Assembly: GCF_019649055.1 (NCBI RefSeq)
Contig: NW_026570225.1
Span: forward strand, 1,302,001 to 1,366,000
Length of the DNA stretch: 64,000 bases
Direction: 5' to 3'
Source: Paramacrobiotus metropolitanus
Lineage: Eukaryota; Tardigrada; Eutardigrada; Parachela; Macrobiotidae
Position 1 is the first letter of the stretch. Every line of letters starts with the position of its first letter. Of the stretch, positions 1 to 58,130 are shown one piece after another. The position numbers and the translations under genes were made by a program. The notes under the pieces are model-generated. The model was given only the letters and a program-made list of their open reading frames with translations, had not been told where the DNA came from and made no database searches.

Positions 1-927
1 TCAGCTTGAAACCGAATTTTTAGAAGTGTTTGCCTGACATAAGAACAGTATATAATTATTTCTGTGATATTCGTAAGATAACAGGATGGCCATCCTCCCT
101 GGAGGCAATATTCAAGATTACTCCTTTCGGTATACATATCTGTAAGCTAAAGTGAACGAGCTGAATCAGCTGTTAATTGCTATGGTGTTGTTTTTATACT
201 TAAGTTTATGTCTGCGAATCTGCGGCACCTTACTTTTTGTGCGTTGATTAAAAAGATTTTTGTTAAGCGTTCTGAGGCGTTCCGCTGTGACCAATTTCCA
301 GTTTTGTTAATTGCGTTTTTTCAGCCGAATAAGTCGTTAGGAAACTATCTGTTTCTGTTTGAATCAGAACACACTTTCTGAAGTTAATTAGAACAATTTC
401 TGAAGTTAATTAACTAGGTGTTATGGGGCTGCTGGACACAGGCTAACATGCGTTATGCAGTGAGAACGCTGCAAGTGATATGTTTAAAAACTAACCAGCT
501 GAGCTTTTAATGTGTTAACGATTGCAGTAAAAGATTATGCCGCCACTGTTCCTGAAAAGTCGTACTTATAGTTTGTTTGTGTTTGCTGTCAGCAGTGAGA
601 AATTTGAAATTGTACGTTTTCGCAAGAAAATGTTGACTGTAACCGACTGTTTTTCCTTGTATGGGTGTTTGCCACCCATTGAATCACGAAAGAAATAAGC
701 TTAAGTCCTTATGTATTAAGAGTGTTTCGTGTTTCTATGAAAACAACAATGCAAATTTTCAATGCAATGCAACAACAATGCAACAATGCAACACGTTTTT
801 CGTGTTTGTATGAAAACAACAATGCAAATTTTTCAGCCGTTTGTGTTGTGTATTGTATAGTATTTTCTTATTTTTATCAACGTGAACATCTTTTGCGATG
901 CTAAGGTAGTTGCGTATAATATAAATT
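1..927. other. Intergenic spacer, no gene seen
   Basis: AT-rich sequence with no convincing exon. It holds two small repeats: a 16-bp direct repeat (TTTCTGAAGTTAATTA) near 374-389 and 394-409, and an imperfect 37-bp direct repeat (about 720-756 and 794-831) separated by a CAA/ATGCAA-rich stretch. The short open frames here are low-complexity and repeat-derived, and I do not regard them as coding. Confidence 0.6.
720..831. repeat. Imperfect direct repeat flanking CAA-rich tract
   Basis: A segment reading GTGTTTCGTGTTTCTATGAA and onwards through AACAACAATGCAAATTTT at about 720-756 recurs with few changes at about 794-831. The 37 bp between are ATGCAACAA-type low complexity. It lies about 100 bp outside transposon copy 1. 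It may be a local slippage or tandem duplication product. Confidence 0.6.
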
Positions 928-1595
928 AGTAGGCTCCGCATACCACCTTTATACCACCGTTGGCTCCTAGTACCACCTTTCATACCACCTTTGGCTCCTA
1001 ATACCACCTTTTGCACACCACTTTTGACTCCGCATACCACCATTTAATTTTTTAAAGTTAAATTTTTAATTTATGTAGTTTAATTTATTAACATCAAGAA
1101 ACGAAATCCAAATCTTTCTGTGTACCGGCTGGAAAAAGGTATGTACCAACTAGCAAGTTGAAGGCATTCAGTATCGCAACCGACGCTATGGAAAAACAGT
1201 ACGAACACACATCGGAAATTTGTTTTCGTACTGTTTGTATGGAAGCGTGTGTCCGTAAAGTTCGTACATAACGCTACGTTGCGAACATTGTACACCGAAC
1301 ACGGTATCCGAAAATGGCTGGTAGTAGTGGAGTAATTTGAAAAGACCAGGATTTAATTTTATAACCTCCATGCAACATATATGTACATGAAGCGCAGCGC
1401 GTCGATTTGGACGCGGCTGCATTCGGTTTTCCCAGATATCCTTATTAATTCATAACACTACAGCTGCAAAAAAAATTAAATGGTGGTATGCGGAGTCAAA
1501 AGTGGTGTGCAAAAGGTGGTATTAGGAGCCAAAGGTGGTATGAAAGGTGGTACTAGGAGCCAAAGGTGGTAAAAGGTGGTATGCGGAGCCTTCAC
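928..1595 (+). mobile_element. Non-autonomous DNA transposon, copy 1 (long iterated TIRs, decayed transposase)
   Basis: A roughly 668-bp element bounded by inverted repeats of about 110-117 bp (about 931-1046 and 1479-1595). Each terminal repeat is itself a short array of TACCACCTTT units (GGTGGTA on the other strand) spaced by GGCTCC/GACTCC. The interior carries, on the plus strand from about 1105 to 1270, a frame-shifted and stop-interrupted reading (NPNLSVYRLEKG, then DAMEKQYEHT after a frame change). This matches the relic in copy 2. The element is therefore a decayed member of a cut-and-paste family. It lies about 270 bp upstream of the HIP1 coding start. The left terminus has lost a few bases (AGTAGGCTCC versus GTGAAGGCTCC). 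No clear target-site duplication could be fixed. Confidence 0.85.
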
Positions 1596-1861
1596 CTAAA
1601 TTTAATTAGAAACTTGCGTTATATTAGCAGGTGCTATGGTATTTCGTTTCCTTAACTCTCGGGATTATGTGTAAAGCAGAGGCGTTCTGTTTTGAAATAA
1701 AAATGGCGGGTGACGCAAATTGAGGAACCATACTCGTTTGTTGATAATAATTCATGATTGGGTGCTGAGTCGCTGACCGCTCTGCTAACATCACGTCAAC
1801 GGTTATTTACGGACATGTCGAACCAGAAACGTATATTTATGCTGTTTGACGGACTTTTCAG

Positions 1862-4800
1862 ATGACTGCCCTGCAAAAGGCCGTCAATCCAGAGGAAGTA
1901 CCGGCCAAAGAAAAGCACATTCGCACATTGATTATCGGCACTTTTCAAGAAAAGGGTGCGCATACGTTCTGGACCTTCATTAATTCGCGTATCCCCGTGC
2001 AAGGGAATCCCGTAGTGGCGTGGAAATTTTGTTATGTCCTGCATAGAATCCTGCGTGACGCTCATCCAAGTTCTCTGAAAGAAGCCTATGTGCACCGGCA
2101 GTTTGTAGGAGACGTGGGTCGATTATGGGTCAGTCGGTTGCTGAATGGGCACTTGTTCGTTGCATTGTGGCGAAACAAATATCCATTGTGCGGTGACGTT
2201 TCAGGGCCATCTCAAGCTTGGATATGGTCCGCTGATCACTAAGTATTGCGAACTACTAACGGTCAAACTGGATTTCCACAATAAGGTGGGGCTTAAGAGA
2301 CATCGGCGTTTTTTTATAAAAGCTCATTATAATGTTGAAGCTTTGGTCCAGAATAATGGTCGTTCGAATTCAGCTTATCTGCAGTTTTGCACCGCGGCGT
2401 TTTAGGAGATCACGTCATGCTAACTGGAATATATTCATGTTTTCTCCTTGCAGAATCCCAGATTCCCAGGAAATTTACAGATCAGCAACGATGAACTGGG
2501 CAGAGTGGCCGAGAATGACGTGAATAACTAGTGAGTCTCTGTTTGTCTTGTCGTGCAGAAGTTTTTATTCGAATCGAAGGAGGTTACAGTCAGTAAAAGG
2601 TTTAGGGTGTTTAGGCCATTTAACGTTTCACTGGCGGTAGCAATTTATTTGCTGTCAGAATAAAGTCTCTGCTTTTCTGCTCTTCTTTACTACGACTGCT
2701 ATATGTTAAGAATTTATGATCTTTTTCTAGTTTCCAGTTATCAGTGGAAATGTTTGACTACATGGAGCAAATTCTCGATTTGGCCAATGTCATGTTTGGG
2801 CAGTTCGATATGAGCCGGGCTAATTCCATGACAAATGCCGGACAATGCCGGTTGATTGTTCTCATTCCTTGCATCATGGATTCCTGTCAGCTTTATGACT
2901 TCATCGTCAAGATGATGTTTCGACTACATTCCTGTAAGTGTTGTGAGGTTCCTGCCTTCAGTGTACGCATATTGCATGGTGTGAATGGTTTGTAACTTTG
3001 TATTGTAGCACTGCCTCAGGACGTCTTGTCGGGACACAGGGAACGATTCAACAAACAATTCAAGCTGTTGCAGCAGCTGTACTACTCCTCCAGCAATTTA
3101 CAGTTTTTCAAAAATCTGCTGCAAATTCCATCGCTACCGGAAGTATGGATTTGTCTCTCTTCGCAATCTGTTGATGTTTGCATTCTTCAAGTTTAGTTAA
3201 CAGCTTCTTCCATTTGTTGCAGAAACCACCTAATTTTTTTTCGGCAAGTGCCATTAATCAGCACGTCACACCTGTAGCTAAGGTACAGGAAACCAAAGAA
3301 GCTGAAGGTGATCAAAGCGGAGGATTCCTTGTGGATACTGCAAGCTCTGTGGTAAAGCTAACAAATTTCTATGACCGCTCTGAAAATTTTGTCTCCGACA
3401 AGAAGAACTACGTGGCATGACATTTTTGTATTTTATCCAGGTTTCGTTTGACGATCGGGACAATGATTTTCGTACAGAACCTCTAGCCATGGTGACCACT
3501 ACGAAAACCAATGGTCATCACAACCACAATGGCTTCGGCGATAATTTCGGTGTTCCCCAAGCAGAAATTGTGGAACGGTATATGAGAGTAGTGATATTCC
3601 GTTCAGTGTTAACTGCACGCTTGCATTTACCAAAATTTCATTTGTTAAATGTGAACAGAGACCGCATGATCGATGAGTTACTGCAGCGGATTGAAAGTTT
3701 AGAAAAGGCAACTGATCGGATTAAATCCGATGATCTGATTGTCATCGATGATCTCCGCAATCGGATTGTCGAACTGGAACGTGATTTTGAAGAACTGAGA
3801 GCGCAGCACGAAACTGTAAGGTGTTTTCGGTTTAATTTTCTTGCGATAGTTTTGTTCATAGCCATCTTTTCTATTCTGTGTTTTAATTGTATTTTAGTCA
3901 AATTTATCTAAATTTGAAAAGTGTTGTTTTTTTATTTCACACTTTTTTCGTTATGGTTTTGTCACATATCATGATGTCCTTACAGTCTCCCGAAGCAATT
4001 GTATTGCACCGGATCGCTTTAACTTTGTCTCAGAGTTTTTTATCCTCTTCTGTAATTTTCAAAAATTTAGTTATAGTGATTACGCCTTCACGGATAATGT
4101 TGCTCTTATTGTTGACGGGCGACCAGTGCTCGCCTTCGAGTACTCATGTTTTATTTTTATATAGGAAAAGGCACAACTGCTTCTACAAATCGAAGAGTCA
4201 ACGAGAAATCCACAAGTCATGGCAAATTATGCAGAAATGGACAGTAAGCAATGAATTTTTTTGAATTATTTTCTGCCAATTGGTTAGTTTTGCACAAATT
4301 AAGAATTATTTTGCGTTCTAGGACGATCCAAAGTTGCTGACGAAAAATTCAAGAAAATGCGTGATATTTACAATGAATTACGAGAGAAGCATTTGGTTTT
4401 GCTGCGAGCAGTAAGAGCCTTGATAGTATCAGTGTCAGGTTTCTTTATTTTTTGCAAATTTTTATCGATTTTCAGAATGGCGAGACGGAGAAGCAATGTA
4501 AGAACCTGAAAAAGAATTTGGAGGATACCGAAAAACAGAAAAACGTGAGTGTGAAATTTGCTTACAATATAACGCATCTAATAATTAATGTTGTGATGCT
4601 ACTTCCCTTACAGGAACTGAATATTCAAGTGATGAATTTTAATATGGAGAAAGAGCAGTTAACGAAAAGTTTGAATTCCACTTCCAGCGACGCGCAACGG
4701 GAAATCAGTGAAAAAACATCGGCGGTTCAGAATCTGGAGAGGCGGCTTGCGGTTAGTGCTGTTTTGCATCACAATGACATTGTGAAACAGATTTCGGTAA

Positions 4801-7800
4801 CTTCCTTGGTTCGAAAGAAACTCCGTTGTATTTAGAAAACTTCACCACAAAGTCCTTAGAAATTTCAAAAAATGTATTACACATAAGTTGCACACTGCGA
4901 AATTTTTCTTTTCGCTCTGGTTTCACTGGTGTTTTGATGTGGTGCTGTCAATGGCAGGATTTGGATGCGGAATTGAGTTCACTGCGAGATTCACGAGAAA
5001 GCCTCCACCGGGAAAATCAGGCCGCTCTGCAGCGTTATACCGAACTGCAAGAGCAGCTCAAGCTCTCTGAAGCGGATCTGGAGGATTTAAATTTCCAACA
5101 CAATCTGCAGAAAAAAGCTTTGCGGCAAAGTTTACTTAGTAAGCGATCCACTACTCTAATTCTGTCCGTAATATTTTTGAAATTCTTCTTGCTGTGTGGT
5201 CGCCGTTGCTCTCAGCGTATTTGGAAAGATGCAGTTTTATTCAGAATTTAGTCAAACCTAACGCTATCTTCAGATGTGATATCTGCGTCGGCTGTAGAAG
5301 AAATTCAACATGCTGTGCACACATGGGAACAGCCCGCTTTCACTACATTAACCGCCACACCTGGTAAAACCGGATAACAACCAACATTTTGTGAATCATT
5401 AGTTAGCGTTTTGTCATGAATTAACAGCTGGTGCTTGCAGAGTTTTTGCTGGTCTGTATTGATCCTGCAATTGAGCATATTCAGCAGCTGAAGAAAGCTG
5501 TTGAGAAGGATGATGAGAGTAAGTGCTGCTGTCTTGATTGGATGATTCCTTTATCGTGATTTGAATTAAGCTTTAAATAATGTAAATTTTGAATTTACAA
5601 AAGGAATGCTGGAATTAGCCAAAGAGTTACAGTTAACATTCCATTTTCTATCTCACTGTCTTATCCAATGCATGGCCACATCCCACATGGCTCCCATTGA
5701 CCTCACCGATGGTAAGTGACTCATTTTAGAAATTCCTGTTGAGAATCACACTGTACAGAGGCATAACAAAGTAGTCCTCAGTTTACCGGGTGTTGATTGC
5801 GAACAACTCAGTTGCGATGCGAGACTTGAAGATATTATTTTGATGAAATGGTATGAGTTTCGTTAAATGTGTCTCGTACAGATATGTTGGGACATGCACC
5901 TTGCAACGAAAGCCCTCACTCGTGAGCAGCTTGAACAAACAGTTTGTCGCTGAGTTGTATGTTTTGCAGAGTTTTCGGCACTGGCCAAAGAAATAAGCGA
6001 GCATTCCGTAGATTATCTTGACCGCTTCCGTGATAGTCCACAGGATGCCGATCCTATTTTGGCCACTCTGGAACAGAACCTAGAGGTTCTGCAGCAGCTG
6101 TCCACTGTTCTCATTCCTAAAGTAGAGGACATCAAAGTGGACGAAGTGGCCGACATGGTAGAGAAAGAGCTGCACGATATGGATAAAGCCATTGAGGAGG
6201 CGGCCTTGAAGATCGAAGAGATGCTGGTTAATTCTCGCTCGCAGGATTCTGGCATCAAGCTGCAAGTGAACGCCAAAATCCTTGATTCATGCACTACGCT
6301 GATGGCGGCCATACGGGTCCTGGTTAGGAAATCACGAACTTTACAGCAGGAGATTGTAGCTGCCGGGAAAGGTTTCTCATCTCCGAAGGAATTCTACAAG
6401 AAGAATCATCGGTGGACGGAGGGACTATTGTCGGCCGCGAAAACTGTTGGACTTGGCGCGAATGTTTTGCTGTAAGGATTAAGCGTGAAGTGTGTAGTAC
6501 TATGCCACTAGTGGTGCGAGTTTTGAACGGTGCGGTAATAAATTATAGTGAAGGCTCCGCATACCACCTTTGACTCCTAGTACCACCTTTCATACCACCT
6601 TTGGCTCCTGATACCACCTTTTGTACACCACTTTTGACTCCGCATACCACCATTTAAGTTTTTTCCAGTTGGTTTGTTATGAAATAATAATGGTACCTGG
6701 GACATCCGATTGGTTTGCCCGTGCAGCCAAGTTTAAGATCGGCTCTTCATATAATGCTTCATCGGAGGTTTTAAAATTAAATCATGATTTTTATTTTTAC
6801 CGGCTCGCCATGTAGTTTTAAGGGTTAGAAGTTCTTTCTTTTCACAACACTCCACTATCCATTTTCGGATACCTCTTTCAGTGTGCGATGTTTGCAACGT
6901 TGACAGTATAGACTGCATCCAGAAAAAGAACTTCCGGTGTGTGTTGATACTGTTTTTCCATAGCGTCGATTGCGGTCCTGAACGCCTTCGAACTGCCGTC
7001 TTTTTGCAGCTGGTATACCGAAAGATTTGGATCTCGATTCTTGATACCACAAAATTCACTTAGTAGCAGTTTAACTTCTGCTTAAAATTTTAAAATTAAG
7101 TGGTGGTATGCGGAGTCAAAAGTGGTGTGCAAAAGGTGGTATTAAAAGCCAAAGGTGGTGTGAAAGGTGGTACTAGGAGTCAACGATGGTATAAAGGTGG
7201 TATGCCGAGCCTTCACCATAAATGATTGCGATACTGAAGCTCACCTGCCTGGTTCGTTCTGTAATTTTTGTTCACATTCAAAGAATTTCACCTTAGCGGT
7301 TTGCACCCTCCAACACTTATAAGGATGTTTTCATACTTAAATTTTTGTTCAGTACTGATGGTTCCAGTGCAACGCCTGTGTATTAAGAACCATTGTATTT
7401 TCAGGGAAGCCGCTGACAAAGTGGTGAGTGGGAAAGGCAAGTTCGAAGAACTTGTGGTGGCGTCTCAAGAAATATCAGCAGGGACCGTGCAGTTAGTGGT
7501 GTCGTCAAAAGTCAAAGCGGATAAGAACAGCCAAACATTGGCAGAATTATCCATGGCCAGCAAATCTGTTACTCAGGCTACGGCAACTGTCGTGGCATCG
7601 GCTAAGGACTGCGCACAACTCATTGAAGAAAAGAGTACGATTTCAACAAAATTCCGATGTTGTACTTATTTCATTAATGGCTGATTTGTTTTTAGGCGAT
7701 TTAGATTTTTCCGCATTATCTATCCATAAAATTAAGAAAATTGAAATGGAATCCCAGGTATGAAAGCCTTTTTGTTATGCATGAAGCTTGTACTTGTATG

Positions 7801-7923
7801 TGGAATTTTTAACAGGTGCGAGTACTGGAACTGGAAACGGAATTAACGCGTGAACGTGAAAAACTGAGCGCTATTCGGCGCCAACATTACTCCATGGCCG
7901 GTCAAGAAGGACAAGTGTCATAG
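1862..7923 (+). CDS. HIP1: HIP1/HIP1R (Sla2) clathrin-actin endocytic adaptor
   Basis: This protein links clathrin coats and phosphoinositides to F-actin at endocytic sites. Exons: 1862-2128, 2205-2285, 2454-2530, 2731-2933, 3009-3142, 3223-3351, 3441-3577, 3659-3815, 4165-4243, 4322-4410, 4476-4544, 4614-4751, 4958-5138, 5274-5363, 5441-5518, 5604-5711, 5970-6471, 7405-7634, 7696-7757, 7816-7923. They give 972 residues (human about 1037). An ANTH domain fills residues 1-225 (KAVNPEEVPAKEKHIRT; NPRFPGNLQ; VEMFDYMEQ). A long coiled coil covers about 345-590. The talin-like I/LWEQ (THATCH) actin-binding module follows from about 670 (ASPKEFY-type motif, then WTEGLLSAAKTVG). The C-terminal helix ends in RRQHYSMAG. 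The ATG abuts a splice acceptor and the family has about 30 more N-terminal residues, so a first exon is probably missing upstream. The 933-bp intron before the second-last THATCH exon holds a transposon copy. Confidence 0.95.
6548..7216 (-). mobile_element. Non-autonomous DNA transposon, copy 2, inside a HIP1 intron
   Basis: A roughly 669-bp element with perfect outer ends GTGAAGGCTC/GAGCCTTCAC and inverted repeats of about 109-117 bp (6548-6656 and 7100-7216). The repeats are built of the same iterated TACCACCTTT units as copy 1. The interior is homologous to copy 1 but inverted relative to it. On the minus strand a frame running about 7070 to 6878 is open for over 60 codons. It reads DPNLSVYQLQKDG, AIDAMEKQYQHTPEV and LFLDAVYTVN, the last resembling the first acidic strand of an RNase-H-fold transposase of MULE/ZSWIM type (inference). 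The element sits wholly between HIP1 exons ending 6471 and starting 7405, so it is spliced out. Lengths of the two copies are nearly equal. Confidence 0.88.
6878..7070 (-). pseudogene. Decayed transposase fragment within copy 2
   Basis: This minus-strand frame is the better preserved of two homologous relics. The other is plus strand at about 1105-1270 and carries a stop and a frameshift. Shared residues are PNLSVY, an L-x-K pair, a DAMEKQY block and an HT-x-E pair. The hydrophobic VLFLDAVY segment is visible only here, because copy 1 diverges at that point. The frame ends at a stop at 6878-6880, followed by further homologous but broken sequence (RYPKMDSGVL). No DDE/DDD triad can be assigned from such a short piece. 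The family assignment rests on the look of the motif and is tentative. Confidence 0.55.
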
Positions 7924-10799
7924 ACGGCCGCTTTATCTTGTTCGCACTCCTGCTTCTTTTGAAGTTTTTTTCCGGTGTACACTGAAGGATAAACGCAAAG
8001 TCTGTTGAGCATACTTTTATGTGATTATACATTGGTTGGCTGTTGCTGTGTGGTTGTTCGGGATTTGACAATTCTTTTATTTTGTTCTGTTTTAAAATTT
8101 TACAAATGGGGGTGTACTCATATACCAGTGTGCGTGCAGGTAGCGCTGACTATGACAAACCAAATTCGGCAAGTAATGCTTTGCAATATTTGTTCCAGGT
8201 TTAATCAATTATGGGACAGTTGACAGTGGCAGATATAAAGGCTGTATTATGTGCGTTCACATCCTCGAAAAATAATAATAATTTGTATTATAGACTGCCA
8301 CTTTATAGGCACTGCTGAAAATGTAAAATATAGATATAACAAGTTACGGAATTGTGCTCTGTACAAGCATTAACCACGTAGTATCTGGTGTTTCTGGTAA
8401 ACCCCAAAAGGGCGCACTTATTGTTAAATTGATAAAACAAACAGGCAAATAGAAGCAATGGGTTGGTTCCCTTCGTTATTGCATTTAAACATGTCAAGCT
8501 ACTTTATCATTTCATGCACATTGCACTTATAATAGTTACGGGTAAGTACGGTACGTACGTGCAGTATGGTTGCGATATGTTATAATAATACAGATATTTA
8601 TTATAGCAGTAAGAAATTCAGTATACATTTATTATTGCACTATCTTATCGTGTTAGTTGTCGCTTGCGCGTATTTGGTGGGAAACCCAATCAATTTCCTT
8701 CTGAAATCTCGTTATTATCTTTACTGAAGTGCAGTACTAGTACTAAGCCAATTAGGTTTTATTTTATTAATTAACTACGTAGTAACTATATCGGTAACAA
8801 ATAATATTCCTACGGTACCTGACTACGAGCCTGCTGCTGATTGACCGCGGCTTATTGTTAGAAGTGCACTGTACAATACAGCGTACACAATATGTACAGG
8901 TACCGTATCATGCGAGAGCAGGCTCATCATGCTCGTATACCGCGAATGGTCGCTACTCACCACACACACAAAACTGATTGTTTTCGTTTGCTCGCAAGTA
9001 AACATAATACATCTTCGCCAGCTGTTTTCGTTTTTCCCACGGTTATTTTCAAAATCCTGACTTTCAAATACTCATGTCTAGCTTTTAGCGTTGATATTAA
9101 GTGAATTATATTTACTGATGTTCGCTAAAGAGGTTCTGGTACTTATTTGATTTATGCAATCGATCCATATCCTTGATGGTTGTTAGATTGTCATTGTCAC
9201 AAGAAATTTGTGGACAAACTTCGGTTCATGGAACATTTCAGTCTCATGGAAATCGGAATTCTTGCACTCTTCTGGTTATTATTAAGGACATTTGCTTTGA
9301 TAGCTGCGGTAGTATAATATAAAGTCTACCTCCAGATTAAAATGTTATAAACCTGTGAAATACAATTCGGGAGAAATGGTAAGTGTCAATTACGTACAGT
9401 ACATTCGCTTTTGCAGCACGAGTAGTGTAATTATTATTTGTTAGTTAGTATGCTTCGAAGCAGCAAGTCACTTGTTGCAAGTTGCAACTGTGCTCAACAT
9501 TGATAAGAACTTCTTGTTGTGGGTAACAATAATTATTAGATTCTTTAGTTGGGTAGGAGTTTACTGTATGACGAATGTGACGATAGTTAAGTAGTACTTT
9601 TAGTTTCTTTCGAACTGCCCATTCGACATAATTCGCGCCATATATGATATTATTGGAAAAAAATAAGTATTCGAATATAAAACTGTGGTGAGTGTAATTA
9701 ATTAATAAGTATTCGATACGTACAGACAAGAGAAAGTGTTTCCTTGAGGTTGGCGGAAAATGCATATTACGTAGTAACACTTTCTCCCATTTACTGGCGT
9801 CTGGCATTAACAAAAATTAAATTACTGTACCATCCAGTTTTTCGGATGGCTGCAGGTTGCGGGTTGGAAACTTGCAGCCATCGATATCTCTTACAACTTC
9901 TCTTTATGTATATAGGTATTACATTATCGTTAGTTGCATACTTGCGTGCATGTGGATTTTCTTTGTTGCTTTGCTGTGGTAAATCGTATGTGCGTTACTA
10001 ATAATTATTAGTATTATGCTTTTACTAACGTAAAATTTAGTGGCTTCAGAGGCTTCTGGTACATAACCTGGAAGAAAAAAGCAGAGTAATAAGAAATTAA
10101 GAATCATCATTCTAGTGTAGAACAGAAGAAGGAACATTTAAGCATACTACTGGTACGAGCGTATAGTATAAGAGTATATCTAAATATAAATTTAAATAAT
10201 CTAGATATTTGAATCTATAGGTGTCTACGTTTGTTACATGTTTGTACTGTATTATTAATGTCATAATGCTTCAGTCTGAAACACAAAGCAAAATGAATAA
10301 TACAGATTCAGTGACGCATTTGTACCACAACTTGTGGTCCACCATTAAATTTGAAAACATTTTATGTATTTCCGTGACATTTCGGGTATTAAATATTAGT
10401 TTTTAGAAATTATAAAAAAACATTTAACTGCTCTTTAAGGGGAATTGGTTTTTTTATATAGTTTCTTCGGTTTTCGAAAAACCGTGCTTCAATATCTGTT
10501 GTCTGTTTTTGCATTTTAATCAAGATTTCATATATAAATATGCAGAAATTCTTTATCATCTCTCTAACCAATAACCAACATTATCGCTTATCAGTTATCT
10601 AACTACCAAATATTATTGTCGTTTGAAAACTGAATAAGGTTTTCGTTACATGCTGTAAAATGATAGGAACATAAAGTATGTTGTACGCCAACAAGGTAAC
10701 TGTACTTTTTTGTTTATTATACTTGTTAAATTGTTTCGTGTGCTGAAGACACTAGACACTACATTATTAGCGTGATAAAGCAACAATATCGAGCCGCTG
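7924..10799. other. Long AT-rich intergenic region
   Basis: Roughly 2.9 kb with no exon-like signal in either strand. The first few hundred bases are presumably the HIP1 3' UTR. The rest is AT-rich with many GTAC palindromes and nested forms such as GTACGGTACGTACG near 8547-8562. Two short inverted repeats are present: an 11-bp stem GAGAAAGTGTT/AACACTTTCTC at 9730-9740 and 9776-9786, and ATGGCTGCA/TGCAGCCAT at 9846-9854 and 9873-9881. The open frames of 60-120 codons have composition like the surrounding noncoding DNA. Confidence 0.6.
9730..9786. repeat. 11-bp inverted repeat with 35-base loop
   Basis: GAGAAAGTGTT is followed 35 bases later by its exact reverse complement AACACTTTCTC. It lies in the spacer between HIP1 and PITPNM. 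No gene or terminator role is evident. Confidence 0.6.
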
Positions 10800-11580: not shown

Positions 11581-14500
11581 ATGCTGATTAAGGAGTACAG
11601 GATTCCGCTCCCCATGAGCGTGGATGAGTACAGGATAGCGCAGCTGTACATGATACAGGTACCTCTACAAAGTGTAACATGGTCTCCTTTTTTTCCATTC
11701 CGTTGGTCCGATTGTGGCGTATAATGGGAAAGTGGTGTTAAAATTAATGCGAAAAGTGTTAGTAGCCGAAAAAAAAGAAGCGAATGTATTTGTTTATCGA
11801 GATGCAGGAAAAATTGCCTGCGTGAATTGCAGGAATGTGCTTCCTGGTTTATAGTGAATTGATTTTTAAAACTCCTACTTTACAGTGCTTATTTGTTCGT
11901 GGTCAATGATTAATCACTTGCAGAATATTTTGCCAAGTTTCTTTTTGAACAGACTTCGTTTTGACTCAGCCTGACTTGCATTGCTCGAAGTTCATATTAT
12001 TATTGCACGCTTGTACTGTAATAAATAATTATACATAGATGTCACATGGTGCACCACATTTTGCGTTTGTTTTTGTATTGGAAAATGCCGGTTTATTGGT
12101 TGTGTGTATTTGCACCAACATTTCTGTTACCAACAGTGTTTCAAGAAAAAATGTGACGTTAATATGACAGATGCGGATCTAATGAGTCAAATGTTTTTGG
12201 GATTACTTATTGCAGCGCATAACAAATAACAACCGCTGCCCAAGTTAACATTACTACTGTACATTCTGCAGAAAATTCTTAAGTTCGTGTCACATGTTTG
12301 TGACGAACACATGTGGGACAGTTAAAAATTGAAACACTATTTTCAGGATGATGGTGTTGTCGTTCTGACGATTTGGGCTTCTGTATCTTCTTTTCCCGTG
12401 GTGTTTTGACTTCAGAAAGTAGCTCACCTGAGTCTGTACGTCTATACAGGGTGATTCAGTGGAATTATGTAGCGCCTCTTTGTGTTGGCTTGCGCTATGC
12501 AGTATTAACGAGCATGTTTTCTGCCGTTGAAGTAAAATCAGTTGGGTAATATGAAGCTCAATTTTTTTTCGTGTACCAAACGATGTCATCGATTTAAGCG
12601 ACGACGATAATAACGATGTTTGCACGGAGCTTTATGGTTTCTGAGAAAATATTGATATGTCGTTATCGTCAAGAAGTGCGCTATACCCTACCGGCTGCTT
12701 GTTACCTTATTGATTGAACCTTGAAAGCATTATTTTAATGCATGCTTCTCGTGTGGAAAGCATTTTTTCCAGGGTTTTTTATATTTCATGGTTTCTTCTT
12801 GTAATCTCGATTGTGTGGTTGTTTCCTATGTTTCCACTTTCCTGTATGGTATCTTGCTTCTGCGTGCACAGTTACGCGCTAATTAGATCGGTGGTTATAG
12901 ACGAAGCGTAGCTGCAGAACTTGACGCATAAGAAATACAAGTACAGATAATACGTGTACAACACTCGGTCGGATATCGTGATCATTAATACGAGTATTGG
13001 TGATAAAAATTAGAAATTCATTATAATATTGTACTGTAGTTGGATACATGCTGTCTGTACTTTCGGTTGTTGTTATTTCGGCAGCCAAGTGTTCAAAATA
13101 TGGCGCAAATAAGATGCTTTTCATATACATCGTACAGATTCAGACAATTCAAGCTCCCAGTAATTTGTTATCTAACACCGATAGCGCCCAGTGATACAGA
13201 AAAAAGAAGATAAAAAGCTAGACTATTTCGTGTTTGGCCACTAGGAGTATATTATAGACTAGAAGTAGGCAATTAGATTCGCAGTCTCTGCAACTTACAT
13301 TAAATAATATAGCCCACGGAACATGATTTTGCATGTATTGTAATAAATAAGTTGTTGGCAGAAAAAATCTCGGTTGGAATCGGAAGGACGCGACTGCGGC
13401 GTGGAGATCATTGAAAACCATCCGTACGAAGGTGGCCCGGGCGGCAGTGGTCAGTTCACTCGCAAAGTCTACCACATTAACCGCATCCTGCCGGCCTTCC
13501 TGCGCAGTATCCTGCCCAAGCAGTTTTCTCCCCAGGCGCATGAAGAAGCCTGGAATGCCTATCCCTACACGAAGACGCGCTACACGGCGCCCTTTATGGA
13601 GAAATTCTACATTGACATTGAGACCGTCTACCATCCTGATCCCGGCACCCAGGATAATGTCTTTAATTTGTCGGAGGATGAACTGCGTCAGCGCACGGTC
13701 GACCTGGTGGATGTGGTAAAAGATCCGATGCCGGCACACGAATACCTGAAGGAGGAGGATCCCAAGGTATTCGTCTCGGAGAAGACCAAGCGCGGGCCAC
13801 TGAGTGTGCAGTGGCTGGAGGAGTATGTCAGCAATCCCAGGAAAGGCCCGATTATGTGTGCCTATAAACTCTGTCGGGTGGAATTCAAATACTGGGGAGT
13901 GCAAAGCAAAACGGAAAAGTTCATCTATGATGTCGGTAAGCCGTGCTTTCGCTTCATATTTTTCTAGAAGATTACTTTCGGATAGAAAAACGGTTTTCAT
14001 AAAGTTTGAGTAGCGCATTCATATTATACTTAATACCAGAAAGACGAAGGACAATTGCATTTTATTTGGTAAAAACGAGCACTGCTTAGAAAAAAATATG
14101 TATGGGAAATTTTGGTAACACCAGCGGTAACATGTGGCACTACCTGGCACGTGTGACACGACTCACCACAGGACTAACTAAATCTAATCTTTCCTACATA
14201 GATCAGGTTTTCCACCGAAATTGTTACGATTGTGTTAGTTTTTATTTATATAATATTCCTGATCACCAGTTCGTAATTATTATGTTACAAAAGTGCTGCA
14301 AAAGTTGCTGCGAAAACGGATACCAGACCGATTGAATGGCCGTGTAATGCAATGCATTATGCATACATGGTTTTGACTACACGTTCCAGTTCTGTGAACA
14401 GGGCAGGACATTCGTGATAGTGCCGTCAGTTAAAAAAATGAATTCACAAATATCATTTTCCACCTGCTAAAAATAGTATCATGTGCGTAAACGCTCGAGC

Positions 14501-23507: not shown

Positions 23508-24563
23508 TTAAACTTTGAATCCACAAGTCTTGCGACGACCACGAGCCCGTTCGAATTTTCGCCCTTTGCTGATGGTATAGGGCCTGAAAGACAATGCACC
23601 AATGAAAAAATGAAAACAAAAAAACAGAATCAGCGTTGAGTCTTACTTTGCATGGGATTTCGGGACACCAGGTGCCAGACCGAAATGCTTGTACGCTTCA
23701 CGGGAGTGACGCGCGCCTACAACACAACGATGTTATTCTAGACATCAGTAGCTTCTAAACTCAAGACTTCCAACAGTTTTTTTTGTGAACGGATTATAAT
23801 GGTGCTTTTAAATCAATACAACGGACAACTCGTAACATTAACTATGCATTATTACTATTATTATTCAAAGAAAATTATTTTGAGAAGCCGAGTAGCGAAG
23901 GCAGAACTGCCATAAAACCAGTAGAAACTAGGTAAAAGCACTAAATGCCTCACCTTGCAGAAGCTGTGTGTTTTCTCCTCGGGGAGACTTCGTGGCCAGC
24001 TGATCGAAGGTGATGATCTCGCCGCCCGCTTTGAGGATGCGGGCGCGTGCTCGCTCCGTGACTTTGAGAGCGCAGACGCGCAGTTTAGGGATCTCGTGGA
24101 TCCTCACGTCGTCCGTGATGGTCCCCACCACAACCGCGATCTTTTCTTGACGACCGATTCGTTTCATGGAAGAAACCTGTTCGCCATTCGCAATCAGTCT
24201 GCTGAACGCACCAACAGAGGAAAGAACGCGTAGCATACCAGTTTCGACAGCGAGAGCGGCGGTCGGTTCGTGCGCGACATACACAGCCGCTTCAGGATGA
24301 TCTGATTGAATTTGGCTTCTGTGCGGCGGGCCAAGAAACGGTACAGCTAAAATGCGAAAAATCACGCTGTTGTTAGTGGATACGGGATAGGCAATCGTGG
24401 CAACAGTCCGGCGAACCTTAACGAGGAGACGAATGTAGACATCATCGGTCCGCGGGGCTTTACGCACAGCCTTCCGGTCGTTCTTATGGACAATGTCGAT
24501 ACCCTGTTTCCCAAAGAAAAATTTGTGATAAATGGATTACATATATGCCGACAAACTTACCAT
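23508..24563 (-). CDS. RPL18: 60S ribosomal protein eL18
   Basis: A structural protein of the large ribosomal subunit. In transcription order the exons are 24561-24563 (ATG only), 24417-24503, 24239-24346, 23954-24176, 23647-23716 and 23508-23583. They total 188 residues, the same length as human eL18. Diagnostic blocks are [94 protein letters not shown] and [11 protein letters not shown]. The start codon is alone in its coding exon (ATG|GTAAGT), joining GGTATCGACATT to give MGID. An unspliced reading across two introns happens to stay open, which can mislead automatic calls. The gene is divergent from synergin, with 637 bp between starts. Confidence 0.97.
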
Positions 24564-29901: not shown

Positions 29902-32900
29902 TTAGCGATAGGTAACCTCGGAAAATATCGTTTTCACCTTCATCTTTCCTAAATCTGCCGACATCACATCCAAAACTTTGGTCCCATCATTCTTATTTAA
30001 ATCACCTAAATCAATCTTCAAATCTCCGCGCACATCCAGTAAACGTGCTAGCTGCTGCGCGGTCACATCGGGGAATTTCTGCACAAACGTGCTCAGCTCT
30101 AGCTGTATCATGTCCTCTGAGCACTTGAGCAACTCGGCAAAATTCTCGAAAATATCATAGCTCAGCATCAAATCCACCTGATCTGGCCCTGAACGTCTAT
30201 CGTCCGTCTGACCGCCGACTTCGCTGACAAACCGCAAGTCCAAATTTAAATTGGTCAGAATATCCATGTCCGCTTTGATGCGTTTGGCCGCATCCTGGCG
30301 TTCGTCATTACTCCGAAAACGCAGTTTCCGATCCAGGATGGCCTGCAGGTAGTACTTCAGAATTTTTAACTGCACCACCTCCATGGTCTCGACATAGTTG
30401 GGCAGCATGAGATGGCGTTTGTAGTCGTTGGAGTAATCCATCAGCGTCATGTGGACGGTCTGCATGGCCTGGGACTGCGAGCGCAGCCATTTGACGGTGA
30501 AAAATTCTGAAATGTAATTCGGAAGCAAATCTTGTATGACTTCTTCTAAAAGACAACTGATAGCTTCCGTTTTGACATGCTCGAAACATTTGCAACATTC
30601 CATCACTTTGTCACTGTGGCCCAGATTGCTCTTCTTCTGTGCCCACACTTGGATGAATTCCACGTAGCGACTGCAGTCATTCACAAGCGCCATCATGACG
30701 TCTGTGTAATTCATAAACTGGGTGCGATCTTTGAACTTTTCCACCTTGAACTCAGTCACTGCTTTCTTCAATGCGTCGCTGCAGACGAAACAACAGTCAA
30801 CCATTAGCGGATTACGCCCTACCGCAAATACTACACAACAATCACCCTGTGCACTAAAAAAACGGTTTACACAATGCGTTGCAGGCATGCATACCGGTAT
30901 TTGAGATTCTACAAGATATGTACTGGCAACAGCCAGGCTCTGACAAAAACGAAAAAAGCCCTTTTCTGATGGCTCGAACGTGCATTACATCAGCAACAGC
31001 GGAAATGAGATCTCTTATCAAAAGTCACGACTTTTTATAACTTGGATTCCCCATCTGGCCCACTAAGAACCCCGATTCGCGTACCTGAAATCGGCCAATT
31101 TCCTCAGACACAGCACGTACATCCTCTTGGAAATCTCATCTCCCATTCTCGCCGCGATATTAATATTTTGATCGAAAATCTGGAAAACATCGGTAGGCGT
31201 TTGTGTCTGATAGAAGGGTGAACTTTCGTCCGGCTTCTGACCGCTTGACCATCCCGCTTTCTCCACGTTTAGTGCACGGTACAGATAGTTGTCCACATTC
31301 AACGACGTCGCTTGCACGTACAACTCCACCAGTTCCTGCGTCTTTTTCGGTGCCAACAGCGGTGCACCCAGACTGCGCACGTCCAGCTGCACGTTAGGAT
31401 GCGAGAGACAGTTCTCGCCTTCGTACTCTTCCAACCATGTCAGCAGCGTCACGATATCTTCCGCCTGCATCTTCTCGTGCTCTATCAATTCCGCAATCTG
31501 CTTCGCAATGGCTTTATGGTACATTTTGGCGTACACGTTCATGATATCGTATTCTGGTGGGAAGCAGGGAATCGCGACGCTTCGGACAACCGAGAGATCT
31601 TTCAACACTTCTTGACGGATAATTTCCAAGTGTTTCACCAACCACGTCTTATCTGCTCTAGCATCGGTTAACTGCGATCCTTCAATTTTTTCTGTCACCG
31701 ATTGTTCCAAAACCTAAAAACTCTTGCAAATGACAATCACCATGACACTACCTAAAAATTACAAACTGTATACAGTATTCGACTTTATTAACACATCGTA
31801 CAATAATTTTTACTGAACATAAACACTTCCCAACGGAAGTTACTACTCGTACATATTTTAATACAACTCACACGCCAAAAGGAACACGAAAATCACTCAA
31901 AAGTGTTAGGTAGGCAACCGGCCACCGCCTGCAAATATGCAAGTACTGAACTGGGGGTAGCAAATCGCCCCGCACCAGACTACCGAACCAGCAGATAGAG
32001 CTGCGGCAACAGCTGTTTGAGTTAAAAGTTAAAACCAGGACGTCTTGTAACCATAACAAAATTATTATCGAACCACAACTACATTGACGTTACCTTTTGA
32101 AGTACATAATCCGCTTGTTATTTTAGCCGCACTATATAAACTGCTTACCTGAAAACACTTGGCCTTCCACTGTTTTGGTCGGTTATGCGGGAGAAATCCG
32201 CTTGCCGCCTTCCGTTCCAAAGCTTTGGCATCCAGCCTTTCCTCGCGTTCAATGATCCTCAGACACGACACAATCAAGGCAGGTTCTTTGCGGATAATAT
32301 TGATCGCCCGGCCCATGTGCACCCAGATCTGCTTGCCCAACTGCACCGACAATGACTCTACAGGCTGGAAATACTTCTCCAACTGCACCTGATCCAGATG
32401 CGACGTGGTCGGCTGCTTGAAGAATTCAAACATGAGATCATCGCGCGATCGCTCCAGATCACTGATCGACTGGTGCGCCAACAGCAGTTTTCCCTCGTCG
32501 ATCAGCTTCCGGGTACGGTCGGCAATTTCTCCCACGTTGAATATCTGCTTGGCGTTCTCCACGGCCGCCGCCAGTTGGCTGTGGCGACTGTGTTCTTCGC
32601 GGATCTCCTTGAACTGGCTGTTGAGGGTTTTCATCTCTTTCAGATCCTTCAGGATGCCTTGGAAGTTGGTCTTCAGGGACCGGGTGTTGGCCACGACATG
32701 GTCCATGTTGCCGATGGACAGCTGGACGCCTTCCACGTGCGACTGCAACATGGTCTTCATCATGACGTCGATGGTGGATTTCTCGCTGGTGATCTGCTCG
32801 TTGCGAGCGCGGAGAATCTCGTCCAGATCTTTAGGCTGATGCAAAAGCGCGGCCACATTCTTCGAAGCCCCATCCGCAATGGATTCTTCAATCACTTTCC

Positions 32901-34767: not shown

Positions 34768-37700
34768 ATGGACACCACTCGGCATTCAGACCCCGAGGAG
34801 GATGTGGAGCGGCGGCAGGGGGGCCAGATTGAACTGGTCCCCCCTGATCCGACCGGGCAGCCCCTGGCCAGTCAGGGGGGCACCCTAACGGATCCCGATG
34901 GTCCATCCAAGCGTGTAAAATGGGTGACATGGAGCAAAAAAGATGCCATCAATTTCAGCTCCTTCCCCTCCGCCTTCGACCATAATTTTCCAGGAACCGA
35001 TGCAACGGTTTCATCCTTCGACCCGGTGACCAGCTCAGTTCTCCGGCATTCTCTGGAGATCTCGTTAAGAACGAAGGATGAGGAAGATGCGCAACTGATG
35101 CAAATAGATCCTCCTGCTGCAGACACCGTTAAAGGTAGCATCGATGGTCCGAAGCACACGTAGCCGTGCGATCGATACGTCACAGACTGAGCTGGGCTTT
35201 TGCAGGTGTGACTGCCGTTGTTGATAATGATGCTTTCACGCCTGTTTGTCCCGCATCCCAAAGTCCCCTAAAAAATACTGTGATACCAAATAGTGATATT
35301 GATGTGAGGATCTCGCCTCATCTCTATGGACCAAATAGGCCAGAAGCTCTGAAAACTCCACGACAAGGGTCGGTCGTGGATGCCGTCAAGAAGGCGCCAT
35401 CGCCGATCACTTCCGTTGAACAGGTATATCGTGCACTCGCTTTCCGTCTCGGCATGAACCATCCGAAGTTTCATGCTTTACGGTTTAAAATGTTTGATGC
35501 TGACTGCTTTATCAATATAAGCTTGGTCGCATAGGAGGCAAAAATTCTTGCCAGGATAAATGAGTTGCGCAAAATGGGAAAATGGGAGGATTCGCGCATT
35601 CCCCGCTGTGTTGTCCCGGAACCGTTCAGCCGGGGAGTGAAGAACTTCACGAAGGAAGTGTGCTGGGTGGCTACCCTGATCGAGAAAGAACGGAAAGCAA
35701 AGATTGCCATGGCCAAAAAGGTTTGCCATTCTTTAAGCATTGTGTGCTGGACGATGCTATATCGATCGATCGATATGTAGCTGGCATACGCTGCCAAACG
35801 GTGGCATGAGAAAAAGGAAGAGCAGAAGGAGCGGCAGCAGCGAGAAGAACTACAACGGCTACGGAAAATAGCCAAGCAGGTGTCATCGGCTGTAATGGTG
35901 TGGTGGACGGAAGTGCGGAAAGTGAGTGCACTGTCTCTGCTTGTGTCAGCAGTAATTACTGTGCTCGTGCTGAGGGTAGCAGTTTTTCTCCAGCATAAAC
36001 CTCGGCGTAAAAATCGACAGACAGCTGAACTGACAGTTTCACAAAAGCTGAGTGCCTAAATGCATCCATCTTTTGTTCTTGAAGGTCGCGCAGCTAAAGC
36101 AGAAGGAGGAAATCGAAATCCAAAAGAAGCGGATTCGTGATCTGCATTTACAGCACCTAATGGATCAAACGGAGGATTATTCTAGTCGAATGGCACAAGT
36201 GTTGTCCAAAAGTGCCAGCCAAACTGCCATTGCCGAAAATCATAAGGCAGAGGAAGATTTGGGTAAGACGATTCTGTTTTAAAATGCCGGTGACTCAAAT
36301 GATGGCTGTTAATTTTTAGACATAACAGATCTGGAATTCCGCTTGGATGATGATGAATCTGTTGCGGACGAGGAGGATACAATCTCGGATGAAGAAAGTC
36401 AGTCTACGATGGAAGAGCAGTCACGCGATGAGGGCGCCGCATTGGCCGAAGAGGCCAATGTCCCCCTTGATGATTTCTTGAGCACCTTGCCCCCCGATTA
36501 TCGGGAATACTTGCTATCGCAGCAAGCCAACACATCACCAGATGACGAACCTCCTTCGAAGCGGCTGCGGACGAGGTCCCGGCTTCTCTCGGCTAGCTCG
36601 GTGAAGCAGGAGGAGCCTATGGACGATGATCGTAAATATTTTTCCACCTTTTCTTGGTTGGCATAATCTGTTACGGATGTTGTATTTAGTGCGGCTTCTG
36701 GTCAACGATTCCCATGAACCGCTTCCGGGAGGTTCGCAAGGGGTGAGTAGCCCTGAAGGGCATACATAATGTGCGAATGCAGTTTCTGAAATGATTTTTG
36801 TAAGCCAGTTCGTTATTACTGTGCAGTATGTACAGTCCCAAATTGCTGGTGAATTAAAATGTACTTAGGCATTTGTTTTGCTAGTGAAACGAGGCTTTTT
36901 TAATTTGAGCAGATAAGGGTAAACTTTTTTATTTGGTGGATAAGGATTGCTTCTACAAATTTTTGCACCTCTGTCCTGCCACCTCGAAGAAATAACTTCG
37001 AAGCGGATTCACGAAGAGGTTATAGTGCTTCCATGAGGATAACTGTTTTTAAATCTCGCAACGAGATTTTATGAACAAGTCTGAATGGTACATTATGTTT
37101 GTTTCCCTATTTGCAGGATAGCTCTGTTCTTGACGAAAAAATCCGAAGTCACGAAGCGGCTCTGGAAAAGCTCCGTCCAAAGGGAAATTCGCTGTCCAGT
37201 ACTCAGGTGAGCATTGATTACAAAGCATCGAACTACTAAAAAACTTAAAACGAGCCAAGAGTCACCGTTGAGATGTACTTGTATCGAGATGGTGCTACTG
37301 AGTTCGGACATCAGTGTTGCCTCTAGATTATGCTCTTAGCCCTTGTTTGTCAACGACTAGGACACCTTCTTTTGGTACATTAATTAGTTCTAACTGTGAT
37401 ATCATAGCAGCTTTAATGGTTTTGTTTAATCAGAATTATGTTAGACGTTAGTGGAGTCGGCTCAGTTGACATGGTTATCTCTAATAGGTCGTTACCAAAA
37501 TACCATTTCTGCTCCGTGGACAATTGCGCGAATATCAGCATGTAGGATTGGATTGGCTAGTGTCGTTATATAAGAATAAGATGAACGGGATTCTTGCGGA
37601 CGAAATGGGTTTGGGCAAAACGATTCAGACCATTGCTTTCCTGGCACATTTGGCATGTGAAGAGCAAAATTGGGGTCCCCATCTGATTATTGTGCCCACA

Positions 37701-40700
37701 TCCGTGCTACTCAACTGGGAGCTGGAATTCAAACGGTGGTGTCCGGGTTTTATTATTAAAACCTACTACGGCAATAAGAAGCAGCGAGCCGAGCTGAGAA
37801 CGGTAGGATTTGTAATGGTTACTGAATTGTTTTTTCGTTGTAATTTGAAATTATGTCTTCTTTGTAGGGCTGGACGAAACCAGATTCTTTTCACATTTGC
37901 ATCACATCTTACAAGATAGCCACACAGGATTCTTCAGTATTTCGCCGGATGCGTTGGCACTATTTAATCTTAGACGAAGCGCAGGCTATTAAAAACTGCA
38001 AATCTCAGCGTTGGATGAAAATTGCGGATTTTCCGAGTCAACGACGACTGCTGTTGACTGGTACGCCGATGCAGAACAGTTTAGAGGAAGTTTGGGCTTT
38101 GCTGCATTTTCTGGCACCGGAATTGTTCGAGTCATTAACCATGTTCCAGCAGTTGTTCGCTAATCCTATGACCGCTATGTCCGAAGGACGAAAGCCTCAA
38201 GATACGGCGATCGTGAAACAGCTTCATACTGTGTTACGCCCATTTATTTTGCGCCGCATGAAGACCGAAGTGGAAACACAGCTGCCGAAAAAGTATGAAC
38301 ACGTACTGAATTGTCGTCTTTCCAAGCGACAACGCTACTTGTATGAGGATTACATGTCGCGCACGAAGACTCAGGAAACATTGAAATTGGGAAACTATTT
38401 AAGTGTCATCAATATTCTGATGCAGCTGAGAAAAGTGTGCAATCATCCAAATTTGTTTGAAGAACGGCCGGTGTTGTCGCCATTAGTGTTGCACCCGTTA
38501 TCAGTGGAGTTGCCGTCCCTGGTTTTTGATGCGATCTGTAAGAAGCCGATCGAAGAATTGTCACAACTGATAACTGCTCCTTTTTGGTCAGTTGGGTCAG
38601 AATTCCCATCGAATCTTTCATCGCGTATGCGACATTTGATGCCGAAGAAACCGTTGATCGAAGAGATTCCGGACGTTCCGGATTCGGGACGAAGAGATTC
38701 GGCGTTGTCTTATCCGAAAAATCTCTCTGTTTCGCTAGACATGCTAGAGTTTGATATGGTTGATCTGACGAATGGGCCACCGTTTGTTCCAGCAAATGAT
38801 CGCAAGATCGAGAAGATTGTCACGATCCATTACGGAAAAACCAAGCGCTCTCGACCAGTACGGAAGAATGACGCGAAAAGGAATGGCATGCCGGACGATG
38901 CGGGGGAAAATACCGCAAAACGCCGGAAATTTGTCCAAACTGGGGGGCGCCTTGCCACGAAACAGCTCGCCGAGTTCGTTATTCCACAGAAAAAAATCAC
39001 CCAGCGCGAGGAACATCTGGATGTGCTGGACAAGGTGAATCGTGGACGATGTCGAGTGCGTGCTATTTTTCCACCGGATCTGGTTCGGCTGTTAACGGTT
39101 ATTCAAGAGGAAGAGGAGGAGAGCTCGGGATTCGCAAGCGGTTATCTGTATTGTCGATCAGCACAGAAAGATGTACTAGCGATAGGTCATCGTGGTCTTG
39201 GTTTGGCTGGATTAGTGGAGATGGGTAGCTCGACTTCAGCGGTTTTAGATGATCCGGTCATGAGATTCTGGATTGATCGGTAAGCCGCACACCTGTAAAA
39301 CGTGTGATACTGAAAACCTTTTGAGCTGTTTTTTATTCAGGGCATCGGTGGCTTTTGCGCCCGTTTTGACGAATACTCCTGTGTTGTCCGTGTCCAGTCT
39401 GAACCAAAGATCAAGTGGCTCAGTATGCAGAAATCAAGCAATTCTCGAACCAGCTTTAATAACTGCATTGGAACCGTTGCACCCTGTGGAACGCTTGCGT
39501 ATATTGAAATTTCCGGAAACACGGTTAATTCAGTATGATTGTGGCAAGTTGCAGACTCTGGATGTGTTGCTTCAGCAGTTGTACGAGGAGAAACATCGCG
39601 CACTGATCTTTACCCAGATGACCCGAGTGCTGGATATCCTGGAGGTGTTCTTGACGTACCACGGGTATAAATATTTACGGCTGGATGGTTCGACCGGTGT
39701 GGAAATGCGGCAGATATTGATGGAACGATTTAATCGTGATACGAGATATTTTTGTTTCATCTTGTCCACGCGATCGGGTGGAATCGGAGTGAATTTGACC
39801 GGAGCGGACACAGTGATTTTTTATGATAGCGACTGGAATCCAACCATGGATGCCCAAGCTCAGGATCGTTGTCATCGGATCGGTCAGACACGCGATGTGC
39901 ACATATACCGGTAAAAAATCCATTTTTGCGTGATTGGTTGATCCATTTCAGCGATAACAAATGCAAAATATCCGATGCGACGAAATTTAATATGTGCTAT
40001 GTTCATTGGTAATATTTAGTTTACAGTTTCCCATGTTGACGGTAACGTAATTTCTGTCCGTCGGCGTCGCTAATATTACGGATATGCGTGTATAATGGCT
40101 TACATGCTGTAGGAAATATGTTATTACTTCTAATTAATATACTTATGTGTAACAGTTGAGCAGACGCATATTTTTTGTTGTTAATTACTCTTGAAACGCT
40201 TGGATATTTGTGTTGTTTTTTAATTATAGGCTAATATCTCAGTCCACGGTGGAGGAGAACATTTTTAACAAGGCTAATCAGAAACGGTTGTTAGGCCATA
40301 TGGCTATAGAATCAGGAGAATTCACGACGGCTGTCCTGAAAAAGGTAATCAAATTCGAACATGTCAGCTTTCTGCACTGTTGTTGCTGATTGACCGATTT
40401 TTGCACAGGAAAATTTCAAGGACATATTTGGACTGAAAGATGACGAAACATTCGCAGAAATGGATGAAGACATCAACGAACTCGCTTATGAGAATGCTAT
40501 TTCGAAAGCCGAAGACAGCGCGGATGTGGAGGCAGCTAAAAAAGCCAAAGCGGAAGCCAAGGCGGTGGATGAAAATGAGGAGAACGATGACGATGATGAC
40601 GACGATGAGATCAAATTTAAAGCTATATCCAAGCTGCTTACGCCTGTTCAGTGTTATGGCGTACGTTTTGCTGAGGCTCACGTGCTGGATCAGGATGTGA

Positions 40701-55758: not shown

Positions 55759-56337
55759 CACAGCGCATACGAGTACAGAGTAGAGTCTGACTGCACCGCA
55801 AAAAAAACGAAAAATCCTCTTCGGGACGGAAAATCAAACTATCTGCAAAATACTAGAGGCGAATAGTCAACTGACAGACTACGTAAATAAATCCATATTA
55901 GACCCTTTTCTAAAAATTTCTAAAATAAATCCATATTAGACCCTTTTCTAAAAATTTCTACTAAATACCAAAAATTATAATTTTTATAAAATCAAAAAAC
56001 TGCAAACGATTCAAACTTCAGAACGACGGAAAACGGCCCGTTGTCGATATGGCAACCGCCCAAGTAAACTTTCGTACGTACCTTTCGTAAACTTCCGTAC
56101 GTCATCTCGCCGCTCACAGCAGTGAAGTTTTATAAATGTACAGTAAATTTTTCAAGCGACAAAGTCACCAAGAATAAAGCCCGTTTAAAGGATTATGGAA
56201 CTTAAGGTTTTTTAGTAAATTCAACTTTATTCTGGAGTTCTCAGAGAACAGCTGTCAGCTGAATATCAGCTATCTCATGTTGGTTTAACTATTCAGGCAG
56301 TGTGTTCACCATTCCGAAAACAAGTAGAAGTGTAGAT
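55759..56337. promoter_or_regulatory. Divergent region between C1D and MED28 with a 38-bp tandem repeat
   Basis: 579 bp between head-to-head starts, so it carries both promoters. A perfect 38-bp unit is tandemly duplicated at 55885-55960. Near 56080-56105 CGTACGTACCTTTCGTAAAC and TTCCGTACGTCATC form a small GTACGT cluster. MED28 has an acceptor-like TTCAG at 56292-56296 before its ATG, so an upstream untranslated exon is possible. Confidence 0.45.
55885..55960. repeat. Perfect 38-bp tandem duplication
   Basis: Unit AAATAAATCCATATTAGACC... ending AAAATTTCTA occurs twice without a mismatch at 55885-55922 and 55923-55960. It lies in the promoter interval shared by C1D and MED28. A perfect match suggests a recent event or an assembly duplication. 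Confidence 0.9.
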
Positions 56338-57633: not shown

Positions 57634-58130
57634 ACACGGCAGCACAAAGTTACGTCGAATCTTCTTTGACGGGTACATGGCGCTACACGCCCTTTAAGAT
57701 ACTGTTTAATAAATGCAATTCATGTTGTTTTGTTTTTACGTGAGTCGTGTTGTATTAATGGAACCAGGGCATATCCAGTTTAATAAACAGATGCTTTCCT
57801 TTCGTAACTAAGTCTGATACTGAAGAACTTTTTTACTGTATTTTCATGGATTTCATTAAACTAATGATCCAACACCTCTAAACGTTCGTTTAGCGCTCGC
57901 CCTTCTTTGGATTATTCACTGATGACGGCTACAATAAACTTTCTAACCGTAACCCAGTCAAAAATACCAAAATTGGTCGCCTTTGCCGTCTGCGCCTCTA
58001 CACAGCATTAGGAAAAACGCATTCCAGTAAACCATAAAACCAGGTGGTAAATCTTTGCCACGAACGAATTAAAATTCTGGTTAGCGCACAAAAATAAACA
58101 AAATTTGTTTCTTTCAACACGTGAAACCTA
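57634..58130. other. Convergent spacer between MED28 and SENP
   Basis: About 500 bp holding both 3' UTRs. It includes two plus-strand AATAAA signals for MED28. No exon is seen. Confidence 0.6.
57709..57714 (+). terminator. MED28 polyadenylation signal
   Basis: AATAAA lies 76 bases after the MED28 stop. A second AATAAA at 57782-57787 could serve as an alternative. Confidence 0.6.

Follow-up and report, generated by a model that had tools for sequence, protein, structure and literature searches.

Two elements in the 64,000-bp stretch of DNA that we analyzed (the window; 43% G+C, with the appearance of animal DNA carrying intron-rich genes) are most likely non-autonomous cut-and-paste DNA transposons of a single family, belonging to the Mutator-like elements (MULEs) and bearing foldback-type ends. 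The family was assigned from two copies, both in the window, and membership of the MULE superfamily is probable, not proven; it is argued from ends built as arrays of words like those of Muta1 and Tm1, from a 9-bp repeat that flanks copy 2, and from a weak match to the Pfam family PF21056. The copies and their arms are:

928 to 1596, plus strand: copy 1, a foldback-type element of 669 bp, non-autonomous
928 to 1053, plus strand: left arm of copy 1, with 7 TACCACC-type words and 4 GRCTCC boxes
1470 to 1596, minus strand: right arm of copy 1, with 7 words
6547 to 7217, minus strand: copy 2, same family as copy 1, 671 bp, interior inverted relative to copy 1
6547 to 6661, plus strand: left arm of copy 2, with 6 words
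7092 to 7217, minus strand: right arm of copy 2, with 7 words

Both copies have the ends that characterize the foldback class, in which short words are iterated to form long terminal inverted repeats. An initial annotation of this DNA had placed the copies at 928-1595 and 6548-7216 and had described their inverted repeats of about 110 bp as arrays of about six words separated by GGCTCC/GACTCC spacers; both copies were confirmed, with arms about 115-125 bp long, 7, 7, 6, and 7 words counted in them, and the spacers present. Complementarity between opposing arms reaches 98% in copy 1 (949-1053 against 1470-1574) and 91% in copy 2 (6561-6661 against 7092-7192). Read inwards, an arm starts with RGTGAAGGCTCCGCA, proceeds through paired TACCACCTTT words (0-2 bp apart, with the pairs spaced by GRCTCCNNR), and closes with a final single word. 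The repeating unit measures 31 bp (GRCTCCNNR, TACCACCTTT, 0-2 bp, and a second TACCACCTTT) and occurs about 3.5 times per arm; Tandem Repeats Finder assigned every arm a 31-bp period and gave the right arm of copy 1 periods of 19 and 33 as well. Variants of this design exist, such as GGCTTTTAA in the right arm of copy 2. The four arms together hold 27 TACCACC-type words, a count made with a script pattern to which we added by eye two words that the pattern missed; each arm includes one weak variant, ACACCACTTTT, and the left arm of copy 2 is one word short of the other three. Three of the ends terminate in RGTGAAGG, and the left end of copy 1 has AGTAGG instead, so that damage at this end is possible.

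Every exact occurrence of TACCACCTTT in the window (16/16, both strands) falls inside the four arms, as do 21 of the 25 exact occurrences of TACCACC and 21 of 24 matches to TACCACCTTT with one mismatch. When two mismatches are allowed, 27 matches lie inside the arms and 47 outside them, which makes the word unspecific in the window at that tolerance. Folded as single-stranded DNA, copy 1 has a z of -26.3 and copy 2 a z of -18.9, each measured against 20 shuffles. No further copies were detected within the 64,000-bp window beyond these two, and an Rfam scan of positions 1-9000 returned no match at the gathering score. Just upstream of copy 1 is a 38-bp direct repeat whose two units (722-759 and 795-832) are 95% identical and begin 73 bp apart.

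The array pattern TTTGRCTCCTARTACCACCTTT had no matches in viral contigs and none in genome contigs. A looser two-word pattern found 12 stretches in the viral contigs, which we rejected as relatives; they are judged unrelated to the transposons because only one of the 12 has a GRCTCC box within 150 bp. An identical stretch occurs in two viral contigs, L004 (near 11728) and L006 (near 10858), in which GGTGGTA words face TACCACC words directly ahead of an AAGGAGG...ATG start, and it looks like a phage operator unrelated to the transposons.

Aligned against the reverse complement of copy 2, copy 1 is 70.6% identical with gaps included. The interiors are homologous in opposite orientation and align when one copy is inverted; the opposite orientation described initially is right. 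Of the ungapped positions aligned between copies, 224 of 235 agree in the arms and 269 of 366 in the interiors, once 15 and 105 gapped columns, respectively, are left out; this difference has a Fisher p of 4e-13, and the corresponding K80 distances are 0.049 and 0.33. Because the arms are nearly constant and about a quarter of the interior differs, the interior divergence probably arose in source elements whose ends stayed constant, and the pair offers a clear case of foldback ends conserved while interiors decay. Two shared arm characters (an extra A and a G, common to the left arm of copy 1 and the right arm of copy 2 relative to the right arm of copy 1, in a region where the left arm of copy 2 is gapped) agree with the inverted orientation; one further character, the G or A of the GRCTCC box, instead unites the arms of each copy. 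Within copies, the arms differ at 1 of 120 ungapped positions in copy 1 and at 8 of 110 in copy 2, from which copy 1 is probably the younger of the two.

These comparisons also bear on whether the copies were ever mobile. One could instead suppose that a segmental duplication in inverted orientation, or a local expansion of tandem repeats around the gene, produced them, on the grounds that the copies are no more than 6 kb apart and that the comparison was confined to the window. However, the flanks of the two copies are not homologous (the longest match between the 500-bp flanks is 11 bp, E = 0.41), the homology of the copies stops no more than 8 bp from their termini, and inverted arms bound each copy separately. 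Segmental duplication was rejected on the lack of flank homology, and an immobile origin of either kind is very improbable.

The initial annotation had pointed to target-site duplications as a check. One is supported for copy 2 (9 bp, one mismatch, p about 0.004-0.012), and none that is significant was seen for copy 1:

6538 to 6546, no strand: 9-mer ATAAATTAT on the left of copy 2, a probable target-site duplication
7218 to 7226, no strand: 9-mer ATAAATGAT on the right of copy 2, its counterpart in the probable target-site duplication, with 1 mismatch

With free boundaries, a 9-mer repeat as good or better occurred in 1.2% of 20,000 control pairs, all with an A+T content of 60% or more, and the corresponding values for 8 and 10 bp were 3.3% and 3.6%, so that 9 is the best of the three lengths tested. 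With boundaries fixed within 1 base, the value fell to 0.4% of AT-matched pairs for a boundary chosen after the repeat had been seen. At copy 1, TAAATT abuts both ends and is matched by 9.7% of AT-matched controls; a 9-mer with two mismatches is likewise matched by 9.7% of controls, which are less AT-rich than copy 1's own flanks. One-mismatch 7-mers, a length outside the 8-10 bp of the free-boundary controls, occur in the AT-rich flanks of both copies; at copy 2 there are also flanking 8-mers with one mismatch.

Such shorter matches are what a foldback-type element of another cut-and-paste superfamily might leave, either P/Galileo-like (7-bp duplications) or hAT (8-bp duplications). Long internally repetitive ends have arisen more than once, and Galileo belongs to the P superfamily despite foldback-like ends with several transposase-binding sites, which makes the superfamily of our copies less certain. 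On the other hand, the shorter matches at copy 2 fall inside the 9-bp match, and the sole protein hint, a weak one, is to a ZSWIM/MULE-type domain. We therefore regard assignment to another superfamily as unlikely, although it deserves consideration beside the Mutator-like assignment.

The protein hint comes from the interior of copy 2:

6881 to 7081, minus strand: 67 codons of copy 2 free of stops and weakly matching Pfam PF21056 (ZSWIM1-3 RNase H-like), a possible transposase relic

A reverse frame of copy 2 contains VLFLDAVYTVN, spotted by eye, which we take to recall the first catalytic region of MULE transposases. When trimmed, the copy 2 peptide (one of six hand-picked pieces) matched PF21056, ZSWIM1-3_RNaseH-like, at E = 0.027; this family is presumably of MULE origin. 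A Pfam scan free of selection by eye covered all 16 stop-free fragments of at least 30 aa from the 12 interior frames, and a single fragment, the same one as the hand-picked peptide, had any match, its best again to PF21056 (E = 0.037); for the other 15 nothing in Pfam was reported at E up to 10, in output from which the tool dropped most matches above 0.1. The PF21056 score of 14.4 bits is about half the curated cut-off of 27.2 bits, Tfb2 nearly equals PF21056 on the same fragment (E = 0.083), and a match of another hand-picked fragment to Propeptide_C1 (E = 0.13) gives a gauge of chance matches. Translated whole, with X at stops, none of the 12 interior frames matched a Pfam family at E up to 1, and the differences between copies over the 67-codon stretch show no codon periodicity (20, 19, and 17 of 67 per codon position). 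A PDB sequence search with the copy 2 peptide returned only weak matches to unrelated proteins, and pattern searches for its relatives gave 6 matches in viral contigs and 168 in genome contigs, none of them confirmed by tblastn. No intact transposase gene was found in either copy, and neither the 16 fragments nor the 12 frames, from interiors of only about 0.42 kb, had a Pfam match to a P-type (THAP) transposase. The evidence for a transposase relic in copy 2 is thus suggestive only, as read from these translated frames.

By analogy with related elements, the transposase that moved these copies would have come from an intact relative at another site in the genome. It would bind the repeated TACCACCTTT words as a multimer, with the GRCTCC boxes setting the spacing of the words, and the bound transposase would pair both element ends. 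Cutting would then take place at the RGTGAAGG termini, and insertion at an AT-rich target would produce a duplication of about 9 bp. We propose that the arms are constant because the transposase must recognize them, and that the interior, possibly the decaying remnant of a transposase gene, would be free to diverge. The initial proposal of a DNA transposon family with arrays of the transposase-binding type stands as the best reading of the copies, with the overall interpretation partly supported. A more specific version, which we put forward only tentatively, is that the copies represent an undescribed MULE/foldback family with a composite recognition code, in which 10-bp words, paired at a spacing of 10-12 bp, join a GRCTCC box in a 31-bp frame that the transposase would bind as regularly phased pairs, and in which a single set of ends is strongly selected and shared by source elements that differ in their interiors.

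The gene around the copies encodes Pfam ANTH (E = 2.4e-21) and I/LWEQ (E = 3.3e-34) domains and is HIP1/Sla2-like, recognized by Pfam and by a match to Huntingtin Interacting Protein 12 (HIP12); the earlier observation that a single gene contains or adjoins the two copies is right. The exons that flank copy 2, when joined, match HIP12 (1r0d) over 189 residues across the junction; because this match is gap-free, copy 2 lies within an intron:

6472 to 7404, plus strand: intron of the HIP1/Sla2-like gene containing copy 2, with splice junctions gct/gtaagg ... tttcag/gga; the joined exons match HIP12

An ATG of this gene, at 1862, is 265 bp past the end of copy 1 and is preceded by ttttcag; it may belong to a second exon. 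Copy 1 may thus occupy a 5' intron or lie ahead of the gene altogether. Arms at 931-1061 and 7082-7212 constitute a 131-bp inverted pair, 92% complementary, around the HIP1-like gene, and copies in opposite orientation around it could in principle drive an inversion of about 6 kb.

This location, in or just upstream of one gene, together with arms much better conserved than interiors between copies, would also suit arrays that the host has retained as regulatory elements of the HIP1-like gene. However, transposon ends yield the same pattern of conservation without any host function, and most of the private arm changes are carried by copy 2, whose left arm has one word fewer. We consider retention by the host to have very little probability compared with the conservation of ends recognized by a transposase.

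Around the gene, a Pfam scan of 10 stretches gave matches at E up to 0.01 for five:

13347-13967, plus strand: phosphatidylinositol transfer protein (Pfam)
24000-24536, minus strand: ribosomal protein L18 (Pfam)
29905-30984, minus strand: exocyst Sec6 (Pfam)
37488-37919, plus strand: SNF2-related domain (Pfam)
57998-58480, minus strand: Ulp1-type protease, short stretch (Pfam)

A 38-bp unit in perfect tandem duplication also occurs at 55885-55960.

The copies change no general understanding of transposons. The design of their ends is already known from foldback-type Mutator-like elements; Drosophila FB elements are of the foldback type too. No paper on tardigrade MULEs appeared by title among the matches listed in a literature search, and the arm 10-mers, searched as text, brought up no transposon paper by title among the matches listed. 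Neither "foldback" nor "tandem repeat" appears in the available portions of two general MULE papers (PMC6446971, PMC13359780). Our arms of about 115-125 bp are within the 14-500 bp given for MULE terminal inverted repeats in the accessible part of one of them, a trait that is not exclusive to MULEs (PMC6446971).

The initial annotation did not recognize the architecture of the copies, which does not make it new: similar ends are described, in the excerpts of the papers available, for Muta1 (PMC5225508) and Tm1 (PMC3169594). Muta1, Tm1, Tetris, and Galileo are likened to our copies by published description. According to the same kind of excerpts, Galileo, of the P superfamily, has long ends with internal repeats, where several binding sites of the transposase were identified, and it differs from the MULE reading of our copies in its P-type transposase and 7-bp duplications (PMC3688188, PMC3573991). 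Tetris, from Drosophila virilis, has foldback ends with internal tandem repeats, and its transposase was not found; it was assigned to Mutator because of those ends and its 8-10-bp duplications, and, unlike in our copies, its repeats are about 220 bp long and its ends reach 1,735 bp (PMC4079207, in part). Tm1, a Mutator/Foldback element of Meloidogyne, is described in the sections available as having composite ends of 1-9 tandem short units, unequal in number between ends, mostly 9-bp duplications, and MITE-like members; its unit is different from ours and usually 14 bp, and its end motifs are asymmetric (PMC3169594). Muta1 of Aedes aegypti, a Mutator-like element termed 'type2 Foldback', has in the published extract 145-bp ends in which a short terminal motif is followed by nine 12-bp words with 3-4-bp spacers, 8-9-bp duplications, a genic bias, and >300 putative non-autonomous derivatives, which mostly have only their ends in common and vary in word number between copies; among mosquito MULEs, 10 of 12 long-ended families carry short subterminal tandem repeats (PMC5225508). 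In our copies no intact transposase gene was found and the words are paired in a 31-bp unit with a GRCTCC box, in contrast to Muta1, with which they share long inverted ends of iterated short words.
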